This document shows, one piece after another, positions 18,614 through 33,104 of a stretch of DNA of 64,000 nt. The stretch lies in NCBI RefSeq assembly GCF_000327485.1, contig NC_019943.1:2728001-2792000 (forward strand), written 5' to 3'. Both the position numbers and the translations under genes were made by a program. Each line of letters starts with the position of its first letter. The stretch's first letter is position 1. This stretch comes from Methanoregula formicica SMSP. Its GTDB lineage: Archaea > Halobacteriota > Methanomicrobia > Methanomicrobiales > Methanospirillaceae. The notes beneath the pieces are model-generated. The model searched no databases. It was not told where the DNA came from and saw nothing but the letters and a program-made list of their open reading frames with translations.

Positions 18614-19000
18614 ATGAAACCGAGAAACATGTACCGGATTATTATCGGGGCGTTGAGTATCGTAAGCGGCCTTGTTCTTGCACTGGCAAGCCAGGGTGAA
18701 GCAATTGCCGGCACCATCCTGCTCTGTGCCGGGCTGGCATTCCTGATCACCGGGATTATCCGCCACCGGAAATATGGCGATGACACGGAATCGGACGAAC
18801 GGTCGAAGAGGATCGGGGCGTACGGACTATCCTATGCCTGGCTGACCGGTCTCTTCTTCATGACCGCGCTCTTCTGGCTGGACTATACCGCGCTTCTTAC
18901 ACTTACAACCCAGATCGCACTGGGCCTATCCGTTGTAGTCCTTACCCTTTCGGCAGTGGTCTACCAAGCATGGCTTTTCCGGAAAGGAGATGTTGATTAA
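18614..19000 (+). CDS. Four-helix membrane protein, DUF2178-like
   Basis: 128 residues with four hydrophobic segments (about 9-25, 30-48, 73-90 and 96-118) separated by a charged loop (HRKYGDDTESDERSKR). The E-S-D-E-R-S-K-R loop is typical of the DUF2178 family, which is usually encoded next to a small XRE regulator. That arrangement is seen here, with 27 nt to the next start. Function is unknown; it is possibly a membrane stress or signalling component controlled by its partner. Confidence 0.75.
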   Translation: MKPRNMYRIIIGALSIVSGLVLALASQGEAIAGTILLCAGLAFLITGIIRHRKYGDDTESDERSKRIGAYGLSYAWLTGLFFMTALFWLDYTALLTLTTQIALGLSVVVLTLSAVVYQAWLFRKGDVD

Positions 19001-19027
19001 GGTATTTGACAGAATGTGGGAGCATGC

Positions 19028-19261
19028 ATGAGGACAAGGATCAAAGAGTACCGGTCTCAGCTTTCCCTGACACAGGATGATCTTGCAAAAAAGGTCGGCG
19101 TGCGGAGGGAGACAATTGTCTTTCTGGAACAGGGGAAGTACAATCCCTCCTTAAAACTTGCCCACGAGGTTGCAAAAGCCCTGAATGCAACGATCGATGA
19201 GCTCTTCATCTTCGATGACGAATCCGAGACGCCTGAGAGCCGGGTCGTGCTGGTGGACTAA
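19028..19261 (+). CDS. XRE-family transcriptional regulator
   Basis: 77 residues from the ATG at 19028; an in-frame GTG lies at 19016. It is a single helix-turn-helix domain of the Cro/CI type ([28 protein letters not shown]), with a short acidic tail. It belongs to the YozG/HTH_3 group typically paired with DUF2178 membrane proteins. It probably binds the AATGTTA/TAACATT array upstream of its operon. Its stop lies 3 nt from the convergent helicase gene. Confidence 0.88.
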
Positions 19262-19264
19262 ACA

Positions 19265-21586
19265 CTATCCTGATTGTGTTGCCCGAATCTCACTTTTCAC
19301 CGGAGCAGGGGGAGCATGATCTGCTTCCCCCGGCCCGTGGCTGAGCTCGCGGAGGATGAGCACCGTGGCATCCTTCTCCAGCGGCTGGTTGTCATTCCCG
19401 CACTTGGGCGAGTAGATACACGACGGGCACCCGCTCTCGCACCGGCAATCGCGGACCAGTTCGTGCGCTGCGGTGAAGAGCTCTGGGATCAACCCGAAAG
19501 CCTTCTCGGCAAGCCCGATTCCCCCCTCGTATCCATCATAGACAAAGACCACGGGCTCACCTTTCTCCCCAAACGATGGTGAGGAGAGTCCCCCGATATC
19601 CCAGCGGTCGCACATGACATAGAGGGGCATCAGAGCGATGATCGCATGCTCAACGCCATGCAGGCCGCCTCCAAGATCGCCACCAGATTTTGTAATAGTC
19701 TGTTCAACGGATTCCTGCGGAATGAACCAGAAGGCTTTTGTCCGGAAGGTCAGGGGCGGGAGCGTGAGCGGCTCAAGGCCGATGATCGTGTCGCCGCGTT
19801 TGATCTTGTAACCGGTATACTGCTCTGTCACTTCCACTTCGCCAAAGAAGCACGGGGTGTTGTTGACCGTCCGGGTCTCCAGCGTCCCGATGATGGAGAT
19901 ATCCACTTCTTTTTGCGGTTGCGTGTAGTAGTCGACATCTGTCTCGGTGACCCGGATAGTATGCGTCTCGAGGTCCATCTCGCTGACCACGTACGTCTCG
20001 CCCTGGTGGAGCATGATGGCGCCCTTGTGCGCTTCGCGATAGGCCTGCCCGCGGTCCATGGTTTCGAGGAGCCTGCCATGGCACATGACCCGAAAGGACT
20101 CCCCGGGTACCCCGTCCAACCGGACGGCATCGGCTGCCCTCCCGCGGCCGGCATAGACCCACCCGCGGATCGTTTTCCGGAGGAGCCCTGCCGCCCCGAG
20201 GTCCGGCAGGAGGCATGACAGGGTTTCACCAAAAAACGCGCTGTCGCGGTCCTCGAGCAGGGGAATCTCGGCAGCCGCACAGAGCAGATGCCCGGAGACG
20301 ATATAGGGATTATTGGTATCGATGATCGCCAGTTCATGCGAGCGGGAGAAGAACTGGTCCGGGTGGTGCATGAAGTACTGGTCGAGCGGGTTCGCTTGCG
20401 CGATGAGGACGGCAAGGGATTCGCCACCTTTCCTGCCGGCACGCCCTGCCTGCTGGCGGGTGGACATCATGGTGCCGGGATACCCGGAGATGATGACGGC
20501 GTCGAGGGATCCGACATCAATCCCCAGCTCAAGGGCATTCGTCGAGACCACGCCACGGAGTCTTCCTTCCTTGAGCTGCTGCTCGATAGCCCGCCGTTCT
20601 TCCGGCAGGTAGCCCGCGCGATAGACGGAAATTGTGTCGGCAAGTTTCTGGGAGATGCGCCGGACATCGTCCCGCGACCAGACCGTCACCAGCTCCGCCA
20701 TCTTGCGCGACCCGGTGAAACAGAGGGTCTGGAGGTCCTCTTCGACGCAGGAGACCAGGAGATCCTTGGTTTCCTGGTGGAGGGAGCGTTCACTAATCCC
20801 ATCGTAAAACGGGTTGAAGAGGACAAAATTCCGCCTGCCATGGGGTGCCCCGTCAGTATCGACCAGTACAAAATCCTGCCCGGTAAGGGCTTTTGCAAAC
20901 TCCAAAGGGTTTGCCAGCGTCGCTGTCGACAGGATAAACTGCGGGCTTGCACCGTAGTGCCGGCAGAGGCGGAGAAGGCGGCGTATCACGAATGCGATGT
21001 GCGACCCGAAAACACCACGGTACCGGTGCGCCTCATCGATGACGATATAGTCAAGGTTCGAGAGAAACGGCTGCCACTTGGCATGCCATGAGAGAACGTG
21101 GTGCATCTCGTGGGGATTGGAAATGATCACCCGGGAATGTTCGCGGATCGCAGCCCTCTTTGACTGGGGGGTGTCGCCATCGTAGACTGCTGGTCTTGCC
21201 GCAATTCCCGTGTACTGCGCCATCTCTTCTAGTGACAGGAGCTGGTCGTTTGCGAGCGCTTTTGTTGGGTACAGGTACAGGGCGCGGGCATCCGGATCCT
21301 GTTCAAGATGGCAGAAGACCGGGACATTGAACGCAAGGGTCTTGCCGCTGGCTGTTGCGGTCGTAAGGATGACATTCTGTCCGGCCCGGGCATGGTTTAT
21401 CGTCTCGCACTGGTGCGAGTAGAGCCGGATCCCGCGCTGATCAAGGTACGAAGTAAGAGCCGGGGAAAGTTGTACATCAAGGGTGCCATACCGGGGGGGC
21501 TCCGGTAAGGTGACCTCGTGGTGGACACAGCGTGCACGAAAAACCGGGTTCGTATCAAGGAGCCGGAGGATATCAGCAACCGCCAT
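19265..21586 (-). CDS. DEAH-type helicase with C-terminal four-cysteine/DUF1998 region (MrfA/YprA-like)
   Basis: 773 residues from the ATG at 21586. It is a superfamily 2 helicase: Walker A TATASGKT near residue 72, DEAH box with IDEAHRYRG, the STATLANP motif, and motif VI QQAGRAGRKGGES. The C-terminus has the DUF1998 metal site CRCESGCPSCIYSPKCGN. This architecture matches Bacillus MrfA (YprA) and yeast Hrq1. The upstream gene, which overlaps it by 14 nt, is an RNase-H-fold exonuclease like MrfB, so I infer a DNA-repair helicase/nuclease pair. Confidence 0.88.
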   Translation of the reverse strand: MAVADILRLLDTNPVFRARCVHHEVTLPEPPRYGTLDVQLSPALTSYLDQRGIRLYSHQCETINHARAGQNVILTTATASGKTLAFNVPVFCHLEQDPDARALYLYPTKALANDQLLSLEEMAQYTGIAARPAVYDGDTPQSKRAAIREHSRVIISNPHEMHHVLSWHAKWQPFLSNLDYIVIDEAHRYRGVFGSHIAFVIRRLLRLCRHYGASPQFILSTATLANPLEFAKALTGQDFVLVDTDGAPHGRRNFVLFNPFYDGISERSLHQETKDLLVSCVEEDLQTLCFTGSRKMAELVTVWSRDDVRRISQKLADTISVYRAGYLPEERRAIEQQLKEGRLRGVVSTNALELGIDVGSLDAVIISGYPGTMMSTRQQAGRAGRKGGESLAVLIAQANPLDQYFMHHPDQFFSRSHELAIIDTNNPYIVSGHLLCAAAEIPLLEDRDSAFFGETLSCLLPDLGAAGLLRKTIRGWVYAGRGRAADAVRLDGVPGESFRVMCHGRLLETMDRGQAYREAHKGAIMLHQGETYVVSEMDLETHTIRVTETDVDYYTQPQKEVDISIIGTLETRTVNNTPCFFGEVEVTEQYTGYKIKRGDTIIGLEPLTLPPLTFRTKAFWFIPQESVEQTITKSGGDLGGGLHGVEHAIIALMPLYVMCDRWDIGGLSSPSFGEKGEPVVFVYDGYEGGIGLAEKAFGLIPELFTAAHELVRDCRCESGCPSCIYSPKCGNDNQPLEKDATVLILRELSHGPGEADHAPPAPVKSEIRATQSG

Positions 21587-22682
21587 GTGCCTCCTCCAGC
21601 AGGTATGAGAAGAGGCGGGCCAGCGAAACCACGTCCTGGCGGTTGTGTTCCACGATGGGGACAAGGGGGCCGGGATTGCCGGACCGGAGATACTGCTCGT
21701 AGAATTCCGGGACCATCTGGCCGGGGACATCGTCTTCCCTGGTGACATTCAGGACCTCGCGTTCAAGAGCCGCAAGCCGCAGGGAGGGAAACCGGCCTTT
21801 CCACCGGCGCCGGCTGAAATGGAGGACATCGAAGTGGGGGATTTTTGCCGGACATCCCAGACCATAGTACGCCAGGCGATCCGCGAGATAGGGGAAGTCA
21901 AAGGATTTGCCATTGAACGTGACAAGGGCCGGCCGGTCTCCGGACACGTGATCCATCGTGGCGATTAGCGCTGCCTGCTCTTCAGCAATATCGCGCAGGA
22001 GGTACTGGTAGACGATGAGGTTCCCGCGTTCGATAACACCGATACCGAAGAGGATGATGGGACGGGAGAAAAGACCGAGCGTCTCGATATCCAGGAATAC
22101 AAAATCTTCCGGCTCGTGGAGAGTTGCTGCACCCAGGACCGATGGATGGGACCGTGAATGCCGGCTGCCGGCAAGGTCCATGATGGATGAACTGTCACCC
22201 CCTGAGATACAGGAAAGGACCGTTTTTGCCTGCTGCCGGAAACAGGGATGCTCCAGGAGGTCGGGGATGGAGTGATATCCCCGTGTATTGAGCCGTTTCC
22301 GGATCGCGGGACCGATGCCATGAACAAGAGTCAGGTCTCCAAGAAGGCGGGCTCTCAACTGTTCGCTGTCCAGCGAAGGGAAAGAATACCCCTGGCGGGA
22401 TTCCAGGGCAAAACAGGTACCCCCCTCGTTTGCAATTTCCCTGCCGCGGAAGACTGTGTCGAATGCCACACCACCATACCGGTCCAGGAGCGTGTCGAGA
22501 AATCCGCGGGCCCGGTCATATTCCGATGAAAAGATCACGGAGTCCGAGAAACCGGCCTCAAACGCATTCCCGTCGCGGACAACGGAATATTCCCGCATCG
22601 ATTGCATCCGCTGCTGCCAGAGTGCGCCGATTCGAGAGGAGGCCGGTATGACAGACATCTTCCGGATACTCCCTCGTGACAT
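21573..22682 (-). CDS. RNase H-fold exonuclease (MrfB/YprB-like)
   Basis: 369 residues from 22682, but a minus-strand TTTAAA at 22687-22692 would place transcription start near 22662. The M at 22658, or the MREYSVV methionine further in, is therefore more likely the true start. A helix-hairpin-helix motif (VHGIGPAIRKRLNTRG) sits mid-protein. The nuclease domain has the DEDD residues in FLDIETLG, FNGKSFDFPYL and HNRQDVVSL. It overlaps the helicase gene and precedes it in one transcript. Family assignment rests on these motifs plus the neighbour. Confidence 0.83.
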   Translation of the reverse strand: MSRGSIRKMSVIPASSRIGALWQQRMQSMREYSVVRDGNAFEAGFSDSVIFSSEYDRARGFLDTLLDRYGGVAFDTVFRGREIANEGGTCFALESRQGYSFPSLDSEQLRARLLGDLTLVHGIGPAIRKRLNTRGYHSIPDLLEHPCFRQQAKTVLSCISGGDSSSIMDLAGSRHSRSHPSVLGAATLHEPEDFVFLDIETLGLFSRPIILFGIGVIERGNLIVYQYLLRDIAEEQAALIATMDHVSGDRPALVTFNGKSFDFPYLADRLAYYGLGCPAKIPHFDVLHFSRRRWKGRFPSLRLAALEREVLNVTREDDVPGQMVPEFYEQYLRSGNPGPLVPIVEHNRQDVVSLARLFSYLLEEAHGGC

Positions 22683-24635: not shown

Positions 24636-25553
24636 TTATCCGGGCAGATCTTTCAGGCGCAAAAGACGGGGGAAGGGGTATGCCGGAGGCTCACCCATCG
24701 TTACACCAGCCGTGGCCAGACGCTCCATTGCTGTGCGGGAATACTGCTCGGAAACATCAATCCCGATAAACCGGCGCCCCAGTTTCCAGGCTGCAAGAGA
24801 GGTTGTCCCGGCCCCGTTGAACGGGTCCAGGACAATATCGTTTTTGTAGGAAAACAGTTTCATGAGCCGGCGGGGCAGTTCCTCCGGGAACATGGCCGGA
24901 TGATCGTAGTCCTTCATCCGTGTCTCCGGAGGAAATGTCCACCTGCCGATAACCCACTCCTTGAATTCTTCAGCAGATATGTCAATGTCTGATTTCTGGC
25001 CGGTTTTTTTATGCGATTCTTTGTCAAAGATCTCGATATATTCCCAGGTGTACTTGATGTAGGGCATCGAGGGGGACTTCCAGCTCCCCCATGCGGTATA
25101 TTTTGCATTGTAATTATTCTTCTCCCAGAGGAGCTCAGCTCTCCAGAGCAAACCAAGACCTGAAAGCTGCTGCGAGATGATGTGGTGAGTGGGGACGTAG
25201 TCCGAGAATAAGGGCTGGATATTCACTGCAATCCTTCCGCCGGGTTTAAGGATCCTCTCACATTCTTTCCAGACTCCGTGAAGACTATCGAAAAATTCAT
25301 TCCATTCGTGGGTATCGTCATGGGGGTCCTGTGCATAGGAATGCCCGAAATTATAGGGTGGAGAAGTGATGATGAGATCGATACTCCGGTCGGGAATACA
25401 GGAAAGAACAGCGAGCGCATCACCGCAGATGATGCTGTTGATAAGCGGCTGTATGCCACAGGGTTCGGAAGAATGAAGTGCCCCCTGAGCATCCTTTGAT
25501 CCTTTGCGGATCTTCGCCTTACCGGCTTTATCCCTGACTTTCTCCCGTCGCAT
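24636..25553 (-). CDS. Solitary site-specific DNA methyltransferase (TSPPY type)
   Basis: 305 residues from the ATG at 25553; the open frame upstream runs antisense through sufC and is not credible. Motif IV is TSPPYNF, near residue 70, and motif I is DPFNGAGTTSLAAWKLGRRFIGID near the C-terminus. The order IV-target-I is that of beta-class methylases. TSPPY is typical of N4-cytosine methylases but also found in some N6-adenine ones. No restriction endonuclease or specificity subunit is adjacent, so it may be an orphan with an epigenetic role. Confidence 0.87.
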   Translation of the reverse strand: MRREKVRDKAGKAKIRKGSKDAQGALHSSEPCGIQPLINSIICGDALAVLSCIPDRSIDLIITSPPYNFGHSYAQDPHDDTHEWNEFFDSLHGVWKECERILKPGGRIAVNIQPLFSDYVPTHHIISQQLSGLGLLWRAELLWEKNNYNAKYTAWGSWKSPSMPYIKYTWEYIEIFDKESHKKTGQKSDIDISAEEFKEWVIGRWTFPPETRMKDYDHPAMFPEELPRRLMKLFSYKNDIVLDPFNGAGTTSLAAWKLGRRFIGIDVSEQYSRTAMERLATAGVTMGEPPAYPFPRLLRLKDLPG

Positions 25554-25673
25554 TAATGGTATCCCTATGGATGTATCATCCCGTGATGAGTAAAATATAC
25601 CGAATCCCTCCAACGAAATGACAAGGTGAAAAGCGTTTAATGCAGCAATGGACATATTGTCTACGATTACCTT

Positions 25674-30742: not shown

Positions 30743-31942
30743 ATGGAATGCGTTATCCTCGCTGCAGGGGAAGGAAAACGGATGCGCCCCCTGACGGCGA
30801 AACGCCCGAAAGTCATGCTCCCCATCGCAAACCGCCCGATGATGGAGCATCTTGTTATGGCAGCACGGGAGGCCGGGATAACTGATTTTGTCTTTATCGT
30901 GGGATATGGCGAGAGGGAGATACGCAGGTATTTTGGTGACGGGACAACACTGGGGATCCATATCGAATATGCCACCCAGCGGCAGCAACGGGGGACCGCG
31001 GATGCCGTTGGTGTTGCCCGGAACCATGTAACCGGACCATTCATCGTCCTGAACGGGGACATGGTCCTGAAAAAAGAGGACATCACTGCACTCTGCCACA
31101 GGAAACCCACCTGTATGTGCACGACGACTACGGATCATGCTGAAGACTACGGGGTAGTCATGGTCGAGAACGGGCATATTACCTCTCTTGAAGAGAAGTC
31201 CAGGCACCCGAAATCGAACCTGATCAACGCAGGGGCGTATCTTTTTTCCCCAGAGATTTTCGATCTTATCGATGCAGTCCGACCCTCGCCACGCGGGGAA
31301 CTTGAACTGACTGATGCGCTGGCGGTGCTGATTGCTCGAAAGCAGTTGTACTCCCACTCGCTCACCTACTGGATGGATGTCGGCCATCCTTGGGATCTGC
31401 TGGAAGCAAACACCTCGTTTCTGGAAACTATCCCGTCAACGAATGAAGGTATCATCGAAGATGGTGTGACCCTGAAAAACACGGTCTTGGTTGGCGAAGG
31501 CTCGGTGATAAAAGCCGGCACCTATATCGAGGGGCCCTGCACAATTGGAAAGAACTGCCGGATCGGACCTCATGCCTATATCCGGGGCGCAACCAGTATC
31601 GGAGATGATTGTCATATCGGCCATTGTTCCGAACTCAAGAATTCTATCATCATGAACGGAACAAAAATCCCTCACTTCAATTATATCGGTGACTCTATTG
31701 TCGGGTCCGGGTGCAATTTTGGTGCCGGCACAAAAATCGCCAATCTTCGTCATGATCATGCAAACGTCCAAGTCTGCGGGAAGGATACCCGCAGGAAAAA
31801 ATTTGGTGCCGTTATCGGAGACGGGGTGCAATTCGGGATAAACTGTTCTGTCAATGTCGGGACAATGATCGGCAGTGAGGCGCAGTTTGCACCAAATACC
31901 GTGATAGAAGGATGTATCGGAGAAAAAACGATTATTCGATAG
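30743..31942 (+). CDS. glmU: Bifunctional GlmU-type acetyltransferase / sugar-1-P nucleotidyltransferase
   Basis: 399 residues. The N-terminal nucleotidyltransferase domain opens with AAGEGKRMRPLT and has the LNGDMV metal motif. From about residue 240 a left-handed beta-helix carries the GlmU acetyltransferase signatures PHFNYIGDS (catalytic His) and NFGAGT, followed by a GAVIGDG coil. It would convert glucosamine-1-P to GlcNAc-1-P and then UDP-GlcNAc. It lies 4 nt before a paralogue and in series with glmM and glmS. Confidence 0.9.
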   Translation: MECVILAAGEGKRMRPLTAKRPKVMLPIANRPMMEHLVMAAREAGITDFVFIVGYGEREIRRYFGDGTTLGIHIEYATQRQQRGTADAVGVARNHVTGPFIVLNGDMVLKKEDITALCHRKPTCMCTTTTDHAEDYGVVMVENGHITSLEEKSRHPKSNLINAGAYLFSPEIFDLIDAVRPSPRGELELTDALAVLIARKQLYSHSLTYWMDVGHPWDLLEANTSFLETIPSTNEGIIEDGVTLKNTVLVGEGSVIKAGTYIEGPCTIGKNCRIGPHAYIRGATSIGDDCHIGHCSELKNSIIMNGTKIPHFNYIGDSIVGSGCNFGAGTKIANLRHDHANVQVCGKDTRRKKFGAVIGDGVQFGINCSVNVGTMIGSEAQFAPNTVIEGCIGEKTIIR

Positions 31943-31946
31943 GTGA

Positions 31947-33104
31947 ATGATGCAGGCAGTAATTCTGGCAGCAGGGGAAGGGAGGCGCGTCCGCCCTTTG
32001 ACGAAGAACCGGCCAAAGGCGATGATCCCGGTGGCCAACCGGCCGATCATTGAGTACGTCATCGATGCCCTGATAAAAAATGGCATCCGCGATATCATTG
32101 TCGTTGTCGGGTACCGTAAAGAGCTGGTGACAAGGTATCTTAATACCCTGGACATTCCTGTTGAAGTTGTTGTCCAGAATAAACAACTGGGAACAGGACA
32201 TGCGCTCTTGGCCGCTGAACCAAAGATCCAAGACAACTTTATCGTTCTGCCGGGGGACAATTACATCGACCCCGCCTCCATTGCCCGCATCAGGGACCAC
32301 TCCAATGCAATGCTGGTCAAGGAACATCCCAGTCCCTCGAACTTCGGTGTGGTGATGCTCAGCAACAGTCATGTGACCCAGATCATCGAGAAACCGGCAC
32401 ACGCTCCCAGTTTCCTGGTCAGCACGGGGATCTATTCGCTGACAAAAAAAAATTTTTCCCATATCCGCGAAAACAACCTGACCGATGCTGTTTCCTCGCT
32501 GATTGCCAGTGGTGTGAAGATACAGGGGATTCCGGCTGATGACTGGCAGGATGCTATATATCCCTGGGACCTGCTCAAGATGAACCGTCGTTTCCTCCAG
32601 AATATTCCGCCGACTCATGATGGATCTATCAGCCGCCATGCGAGCATCCATGGGGCAGTCCAGATTGGGAAAGGGACTACAATCGGTCCCAATACCGTTA
32701 TCAATGGGCCCGTAGTAATCGGGAATGACTGCAGGATCGGCCCCAATTGTTGCATCCAGCCCAATACCAGCATCGGATCCCGAGTAACTATTGAACCGTT
32801 CACTATCGTTGGCGACGCCATTGTCATGGACGATACCACGATAGGGTCTCACTCCCGGGTTATCGATACGATCCTGGGAGAACGGTGCAAGCTTGCCGAT
32901 CATCTCTCGATCTCAACCATCACCGGGATCCATGATATTGAGGGCAGTCCTACGAGGTCTGAGTTCGGTGCAGTGCTTGGTGACTCTGTTACCAGCGGTC
33001 CCTTCACAATCCTGAAAAATACCCTTGTCGGAAATAATGCTATTATTGAAGGCAATAGCAGCCTCTCGTCCAGACAGGTCCAGGATAATTCTCTGGTGAT
33101 CTGA
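31947..33104 (+). CDS. Sugar-1-phosphate nucleotidyltransferase with beta-helix tail (GlmU paralogue)
   Basis: 385 residues; ATG at 31947, with a second ATG at the next codon. The N-terminal domain (AAGEGRRVRPLTKNRPK, LPGDNYID) is a nucleotidyltransferase like the gene before it. The C-terminal hexapeptide repeats are present, but the HFNYIGD acetyltransferase motif of GlmU is lacking; a TITGIHDIEG segment occupies that place. It probably makes NDP-glucose or another activated sugar rather than GlcNAc. It is tandem with glmU and 1 nt before glmS. Confidence 0.87.
   Translation: MMQAVILAAGEGRRVRPLTKNRPKAMIPVANRPIIEYVIDALIKNGIRDIIVVVGYRKELVTRYLNTLDIPVEVVVQNKQLGTGHALLAAEPKIQDNFIVLPGDNYIDPASIARIRDHSNAMLVKEHPSPSNFGVVMLSNSHVTQIIEKPAHAPSFLVSTGIYSLTKKNFSHIRENNLTDAVSSLIASGVKIQGIPADDWQDAIYPWDLLKMNRRFLQNIPPTHDGSISRHASIHGAVQIGKGTTIGPNTVINGPVVIGNDCRIGPNCCIQPNTSIGSRVTIEPFTIVGDAIVMDDTTIGSHSRVIDTILGERCKLADHLSISTITGIHDIEGSPTRSEFGAVLGDSVTSGPFTILKNTLVGNNAIIEGNSSLSSRQVQDNSLVI

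Follow-up and report, generated by a model that had tools for sequence, protein, structure and literature searches.

Introduction

MrfA and MrfB (YprA and YprB) of Bacillus subtilis form an excision pathway that is independent of UvrABC, in which the helicase opens DNA in the 3'-5' direction and the nuclease digests it from the 3' end (PMC11194089, summarised in PMC12458937). MrfB has a DEDDh active site and a C-terminal tetratricopeptide repeat (TPR) region, and roles for the Phe-Asp of its Exo II motif and for a Leu wedge are described in the same work (PMC11194089). The sole model of the complex is an AlphaFold-Multimer prediction (interface predicted template modelling score, ipTM, 0.807), in which the N-terminus of MrfB wraps around the winged helix of MrfA with its N-terminal helix in a cleft, and which its authors say warrants further testing (Manthei et al. 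2024, PMC11194089). Here we describe an adjacent MrfB-like nuclease gene and MrfA-like helicase gene in the methanogenic archaeon Methanoregula formicica SMSP, located at 19265-22682 of a window of 64,000 nucleotides (the whole stretch analysed, positions 2,728,001 to 2,792,000 of NC_019943.1); the two genes probably code for a DNA-processing unit of the MrfAB type whose parts are functionally coupled.

Among repair helicases, those of the YprA family that are associated with or fused to MrfB have been described as forming a broad branch (Bell et al. 2025, PMC12458937), and nucleases of COG3359 often have a TPR after them (Majorek et al. 2014, PMC3985635). The association itself is already published. 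The nuclease type with a helix-hairpin-helix (HhH), the reversed gene order and the loss of the helicase reported here were not found in the available text of PMC12458937 and PMC3985635 or in wider literature listings, a scope that excludes the original mrfAB and MrfA structure papers, and we make no claim that accounts of an HhH/TPR switch or of the docking evidence are absent elsewhere.

Results

The helicase gene (19265..21586, minus strand) encodes 773 amino acids starting with MAVADILR, and its product belongs to the MrfA/YprA (DUF1998) family. Pfam matches were obtained, all above the Pfam cut-offs, to DEAD (117.9 bits), Helicase_C (57.2), WHD_HRQ1 (39.0) and MZB (PF09369, the DUF1998 cysteine domain; 91.3 bits against a cut-off of 24.2), and the top NCBIfam model was TIGR03817 (802.7 bits, cut-off 874.1). 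MrfA was the top PDB match by sequence (1.2e-151). An AlphaFold2 model built from 35 sequences, with a predicted local distance difference test (pLDDT) value of 88.3, aligned to MrfA (6znp) over 689 residues with a Z of 39.7 and a root-mean-square deviation (rmsd) of 6.7, the next non-MrfA chain being Lhr at a Z of 26.9. As MrfA was best by both sequence and structure and Lhr was far lower, a grouping with a different superfamily 2 (SF2) helicase family is excluded. The DEAH motif II (21026..21037, minus strand; residues 184-187), with D184, E185 and H187, and the zinc cysteines Cys714, Cys716, Cys720 and Cys723 of the MZB zinc-binding domain (19415..19654, minus strand; residues 645-724) were invariant in 35/35 aligned helicases, bearing out the initial annotation, which had read this protein as a DEAH helicase with a C-terminal DUF1998-type cysteine cluster. 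The helicase thus resembles B. subtilis MrfA in being an SF2 helicase of that family with a winged-helix domain and the MZB zinc domain, and differs in its motif II, which is DELH in the aligned B. subtilis sequence. By homology with MrfA, 3'-5' helicase activity is predicted.

The nuclease gene (21573..22682, minus strand) encodes a 369-amino-acid, MrfB/COG3359-like DEDDh exonuclease of the HhH type. Its RNase_H_2/DEDDh catalytic domain (21597..22115, minus strand; residues about 190-362) scored 131.5 bits against Pfam RNase_H_2, and the MrfB core was the top solved relative by sequence (4.7e-22). In the structural model (pLDDT 88.8, 38 sequences), for which the structural library lists covered the catalytic part, residues 166-369, MrfB was placed first by Foldseek (1.2e-07). 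It was also best in VIA (8un9; Z 18.5, 205 residues aligned, rmsd 2.8), followed by B-family polymerases with a Z of at most 16.4; this alignment spans residues 73-367 of the model and 37-279 of the MrfB chain, and so includes the core fold and part of the N-terminal insertion of MrfB. The catalytic residues D198, E200, D262, H346 and D350 were invariant in 38/38 family members and retained in 115 of the 116 sequences of a wider alignment, the exception (L071) being a distant DEDDy protein. The Phe of Exo II (F261) was present in 116/116, and position 204, which corresponds to the Leu wedge, was Leu in 88/116 and I, F, V or M in the remainder. The relation to YprB and the intact DEDD site that had been proposed for this nuclease are therefore upheld, and it shares with B. 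subtilis MrfB the DEDDh core, the Leu wedge position, the Exo II Phe-Asp and an N-terminal helix before the core.

The HhH region (22188..22370, minus strand; residues about 105-165) was below threshold when the single sequence was searched (HHH_5, 15.9 bits, cut-off 27). However, it looks real, because HHH_5 was matched by 23/38 family members and DNA_pol_lambd_f by 20/38 (E<=0.1), Gly122 within it was invariant in 38/38 and the model is confident over the region (pLDDT >90). No TPR was matched by Pfam in the nuclease, in which only about 7 residues follow the catalytic domain. As we hold the TPR to be typical of MrfB/YprB exonucleases rather than defining, the protein is treated as an architectural variant of them. 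HhH motifs are also carried by the COG2251/TM0106 nucleases, and these share the RNase_H_2 fold with the window nuclease; the match to their model (TIGR03491) was weak, at 11 bits against a cut-off of 97. They differ in carrying a RecB-like nuclease domain (PMC3985635).

The pairing of the two genes was surveyed in a phylum sample of 196 genomes (nuclease match E<=1e-8, helicase match E<=1e-40), in which the nuclease was detected in 43 genomes and the helicase in 111. After removal of G185, the source of the DEDDy protein L071, the helicase was directly downstream of the nuclease on the same strand in 33 of 42 nuclease-bearing genomes. The nine others were five of the Methanoculleus group together with G025, G082, G159 and G160, the helicase being broken in the last. 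Start and stop codons overlapped in 37/42 scored pairs (43 loci including that of the window, one without a scorable start), commonly by 4 or 14 nucleotides and by exactly 14 in 9/42, and an exact 14-nucleotide overlap was also found in a pair from a Bipolaricaulota bacterium. The overlap exceeds chance. Where the HhH nuclease is unlinked (in Methanobrevibacter and relatives, Lokiarchaeota, Bacillota and one Bacteroidetes), a helicase was present elsewhere in 15/17 genomes. The linked helicases, the overlaps and this unlinked co-occurrence make a conserved MrfAB-type partnership likely. The archaeal f8 group of YprA-only helicases is about 40% identical to the window helicase, and differs in that no HhH nuclease was found in those genomes.

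Loci with an altered or absent helicase were also seen in the survey. In L078 (G001:C18:60098-62340), two frames together make up the helicase of a linked pair, which reflects either a sequencing error or a pseudogene. At 2858-5656 of L070 (G160), the nuclease is followed by a 110-amino-acid helicase fragment and a transposase-like open reading frame (ORF), apparently a recent inactivation of the helicase. L067 and L068 (from G025 and G082, outside Methanomicrobiales) hold an HhH nuclease with all catalytic residues in genomes that gave no helicase match, and are candidates for a further loss.

In Methanoculleus, the nuclease has been kept where the helicase is gone. Among 35 genomes of this genus, 26 gave a nuclease match and 12 a helicase match; nine contain a linked pair and 16 have the nuclease with no helicase match, 13 of these having a completeness of 90% or more and a contamination of 5% or less. 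In five Methanoculleus genomes, the nuclease sits in a neighbourhood like that of the window with the helicase gone, and no helicase remnant was detected by tblastn (E 0.01) beside orphan nucleases at the Methanoculleus loci L062-L066 and L229-L231. In G398, the nuclease adjoins a gene, presumably archaemetzincin-like, that comes after the helicase in the sister genome G096. A tree of the genus needs two changes, one for G398, which groups with its paired sister G096 (99/97 support), and one for the other 14 orphan nucleases, which form one group (89/78); there would therefore have been at least two losses of the helicase, if it was ancestral. G379 contains a nuclease and an unlinked helicase elsewhere that is 48% identical. 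Its nuclease locus (L227, G379:C8:11000-16500) is of the orphan type, and the separate helicase is unlike that of its genus and was possibly re-acquired.

The loss of the helicase coincides with loss of a segment at the N-terminus of the nuclease. This segment (22575..22643, minus strand; residues about 14-36) contains a motif of about 22 residues, W-R-x-R-I followed by E/D-Y-x-V, which is recognisable in most Methanomicrobiales nucleases and is predicted to form a putative helicase-docking helix. Using a profile built without Methanoculleus sequences, the motif was present in 9/9 helicase-linked Methanoculleus nucleases (eight by score, at least 16.6 bits, and the ninth, L210/G381, by eye) and in 0/15 without a linked helicase (best 1.0 bit); 15 of the 17 unlinked nucleases were scored, G379 among them, and the partial matches G385 and G391 were left out. 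Fisher's exact p for this association is 8e-7, but the nucleases counted do not represent independent observations, and the effective support comes from the two losses. Decayed forms of the motif are visible in G398 and G397. Over this segment the pLDDT of the monomer model was 45-74 per ten residues, and such low confidence might be seen where folding depends on a partner. The pattern of loss fits the docking of MrfB on MrfA in the published model. In bacterial MrfB-like nucleases beside a helicase, a short N-terminal helix pattern was seen in 16/20 against 1.3 expected from shuffles; as this pattern was picked post hoc, it is only suggestive.

A possible, if rather unlikely, alternative is that loss of the helix in Methanoculleus has nothing to do with the helicase, and reflects start-codon drift or a relaxation across the clade. 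There are two independent losses only, and the solo nucleases are slightly less constrained than paired ones, with a median ratio of nonsynonymous to synonymous substitution (dN/dS) of 0.25 (105 comparisons) against 0.18 (36 comparisons). However, the catalytic residues are still intact. The lost helicase lay on the 3' side of the nuclease gene and the helix is encoded at its opposite, 5' extremity, so a single deletion cannot explain both losses, and in G398, the second independent loss, the motif carries an internal deletion while its paired sister G096 retains it.

Several observations weigh against a tight coupling and against the docking helix. The distances between helicases and between nucleases are correlated (r 0.85 in 84 genomes and 0.89 in 23 with unlinked genes, with 0/2000 permutations as high), which speaks for co-inheritance, but these figures include the effect of species relatedness, which confounds the correlation and explains part of it. 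The helicase occurs alone in at least 76 of the 111 helicase-bearing sampled genomes, although those helicases are more distant, and the nuclease persists alone in Methanoculleus and in G025 and G082. Outside Methanomicrobiales the motif is patchy, reaching at least 11.9 bits in 10/23 held-out linked nucleases and in 1/21 that are unlinked or of unresolved linkage (L086, whose contig ends at the nuclease), and the docking proposal rests on only two independent losses. As Methanoculleus lost the linked helicase and retained the nuclease, the pairing is not obligate. The initial annotation had taken the tight coupling to suggest a shared DNA-repair unit; the coupling is conserved, but the unit is not an obligate one, given nucleases without a helicase in Methanoculleus and the many archaea with the helicase only.

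The nuclease could also serve mainly in general 3'-end processing, with the helicase as an occasional partner. The 16/35 Methanoculleus genomes that keep the nuclease alone are in keeping with this, and their orphan nucleases are under purifying selection. We regard this explanation as doubtful, since the overlap of the two genes is conserved across distant archaea and one bacterial lineage, and since the helicase is kept in nearly all genomes in which the HhH nuclease gene is unlinked.

The archaeal pair is a variant of the bacterial one, with an HhH in place of the TPR and the gene order reversed. The genes are adjacent in both, but the nuclease gene comes first in the archaeon and the helicase gene first in Bacillus, and the archaeal nuclease has an HhH and no C-terminal TPR, whereas the reverse is true of MrfB. 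The proposal that this nuclease carries the domain combination of its Bacillus counterpart therefore does not hold. Across 80 named loci, HhH nucleases are without a long C-terminal region and are followed by the helicase gene where linked, and nucleases whose C-terminal region measures about 110-165 residues are without HhH and are preceded by the helicase gene where linked. This region was a TPR by Pfam in all three bacterial relatives examined (L110, L121 and L146). A few bacterial nucleases have neither HhH nor TPR, with the helicase first in L112 and L144 and the nuclease first in L115 and L120. No fusion of helicase and nuclease was found in the 80 named loci. A candidate fusion in G299 (a frame of 1182 amino acids), among 151 genomes of one bacterial phylum of which 75 had the nuclease, proved to be two overlapping frames.

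At least two changes between architectures (HhH, short and TPR) are needed on the nuclease tree. The helicase tree places the linked HhH types in one large group (87% support), apart from a bacterial group (99) that contains TPR, short and Bacillota HhH types. The trees were thinned (84/112 helicase and 89/116 nuclease rows) and unrooted, having no outgroup, with weak deep nodes, so that gain and loss are indistinguishable on them. The simplest reading would be one old partnership of helicase and nuclease in which the accessory module was swapped. A convergent origin, in which an MrfA-like helicase was independently joined by a different DEDDh/HhH nuclease and the pair may have another job, is improbable. 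The reversed order, the exchange of TPR for HhH and the solitary HhH nucleases of Lokiarchaeota, Methanobrevibacter and Bacillota speak for it. Against it, MrfB is the closest relative of solved structure across the core and a portion of the N-terminal region, nucleases of all three architectures form one family with so few changes between them, and in both trees the HhH and short types of Bacillota fall on the bacterial side together with TPR types.

Antiviral defence is a very improbable role for the pair: YprA helicases have a central place in DISARM, Dpd, Druantia and ARMADA (PMC12458937), and PADLOC helicase models match the window helicase through shared motor domains (best BrxHI, 1.3e-39), but these matches are partial, confined to the motor domains and weaker than that to MrfA, the nuclease had no PADLOC match, no relative on a viral contig was confirmed, the neighbouring genes examined included no partners of the DISARM, Druantia, Dpd or ARMADA type, the pair has the same chromosomal neighbourhood in Methanoculleus rather than lying in an island, and helicases associated with MrfB, as this one is with an MrfB homologue, are placed in the repair branch (the MrfAB/YprAB branch of Bell et al. 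2025, PMC12458937).

In the window, both ORFs are on the minus strand at the coordinates first assigned to them, with the nuclease gene upstream and the helicase gene downstream. The nuclease stop and helicase start share 14 nucleotides (21573..21586, minus strand), confirming the overlap first noted, and a Shine-Dalgarno-like run (GGAGGAGG; 21590..21597, minus strand) lies within the nuclease gene just upstream of the helicase ATG. A mechanical ORF list contains an upstream ATG that gives a longer, 827-amino-acid helicase; comparison with relatives supports the shorter form of 773 amino acids. Translation of the nuclease may begin at Met9 (22658) instead of Met1, because the alignments of several relatives begin only there. 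Each gene is in single copy in the genome of 2,820,858 bases at the search thresholds used, and the closest named relatives are from Methanoregula.

Upstream of the nuclease, the next gene encodes a hydrolase of the haloacid dehalogenase (HAD) type and is divergent, with a gap of 101 nucleotides. At the helicase end, a helix-turn-helix (HTH) regulator gene is convergent, with a gap of 3 nucleotides. With a divergent neighbour upstream and a convergent one downstream, the pair looks like one bicistronic unit. Of the two genes that adjoin the helicase end (18614-19261, plus strand), one encodes a small membrane protein and the other an HTH_3 regulator, and both are also neighbours of the nuclease in L062 and L063. 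Near the pair is a solitary N6_N4_Mtase DNA methylase (139.1 bits; 24636-25607, minus strand), and similar ORFs are present in the Methanoculleus neighbourhoods L072 and L229. Further away (30743-33104, plus strand) are two tandem ORFs followed by a third, which we take from their translations to be sugar-nucleotidyltransferase-like and GlmS-like, respectively.

Discussion

If the two genes act together as a unit of the MrfAB type, the following mechanism could be envisaged. Translation of the overlapping genes, aided by the internal ribosome-binding site, would yield both proteins together. The MrfA-like helicase, for which homology predicts 3'-5' translocation, would open the damaged duplex, with the DEDDh nuclease tethered to it through the N-terminal helix. 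The HhH of the nuclease could hold or steady the DNA, while the unwound strand is digested from its 3' end and the stretch bearing the lesion is excised. We infer the physical complex, the docking role of the helix, the direction of action and a substrate of damaged DNA. The Bacillus pair protects against mitomycin C, its two genes being epistatic, and repair of mitomycin-type lesions in archaea would be an extrapolation.

A more specific proposal seems to us evenly balanced. It holds that the nuclease has a dedicated docking helix, that the core was kept while the HhH/TPR module and the gene order were exchanged, and that the orphan nucleases of Methanoculleus lost only the helix and function singly or together with a different helicase.

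Archaeal species that have the helicase and others that lack it provide a natural, experiment-like and independent check of the docking model, and name the segment that could be mutated. If the partnership described here is correct, the MrfAB-type pathway would be extended to methanogens and Asgard archaea. As the accessory domain would then be replaceable, neither the HhH nor the TPR could be what joins the two enzymes.

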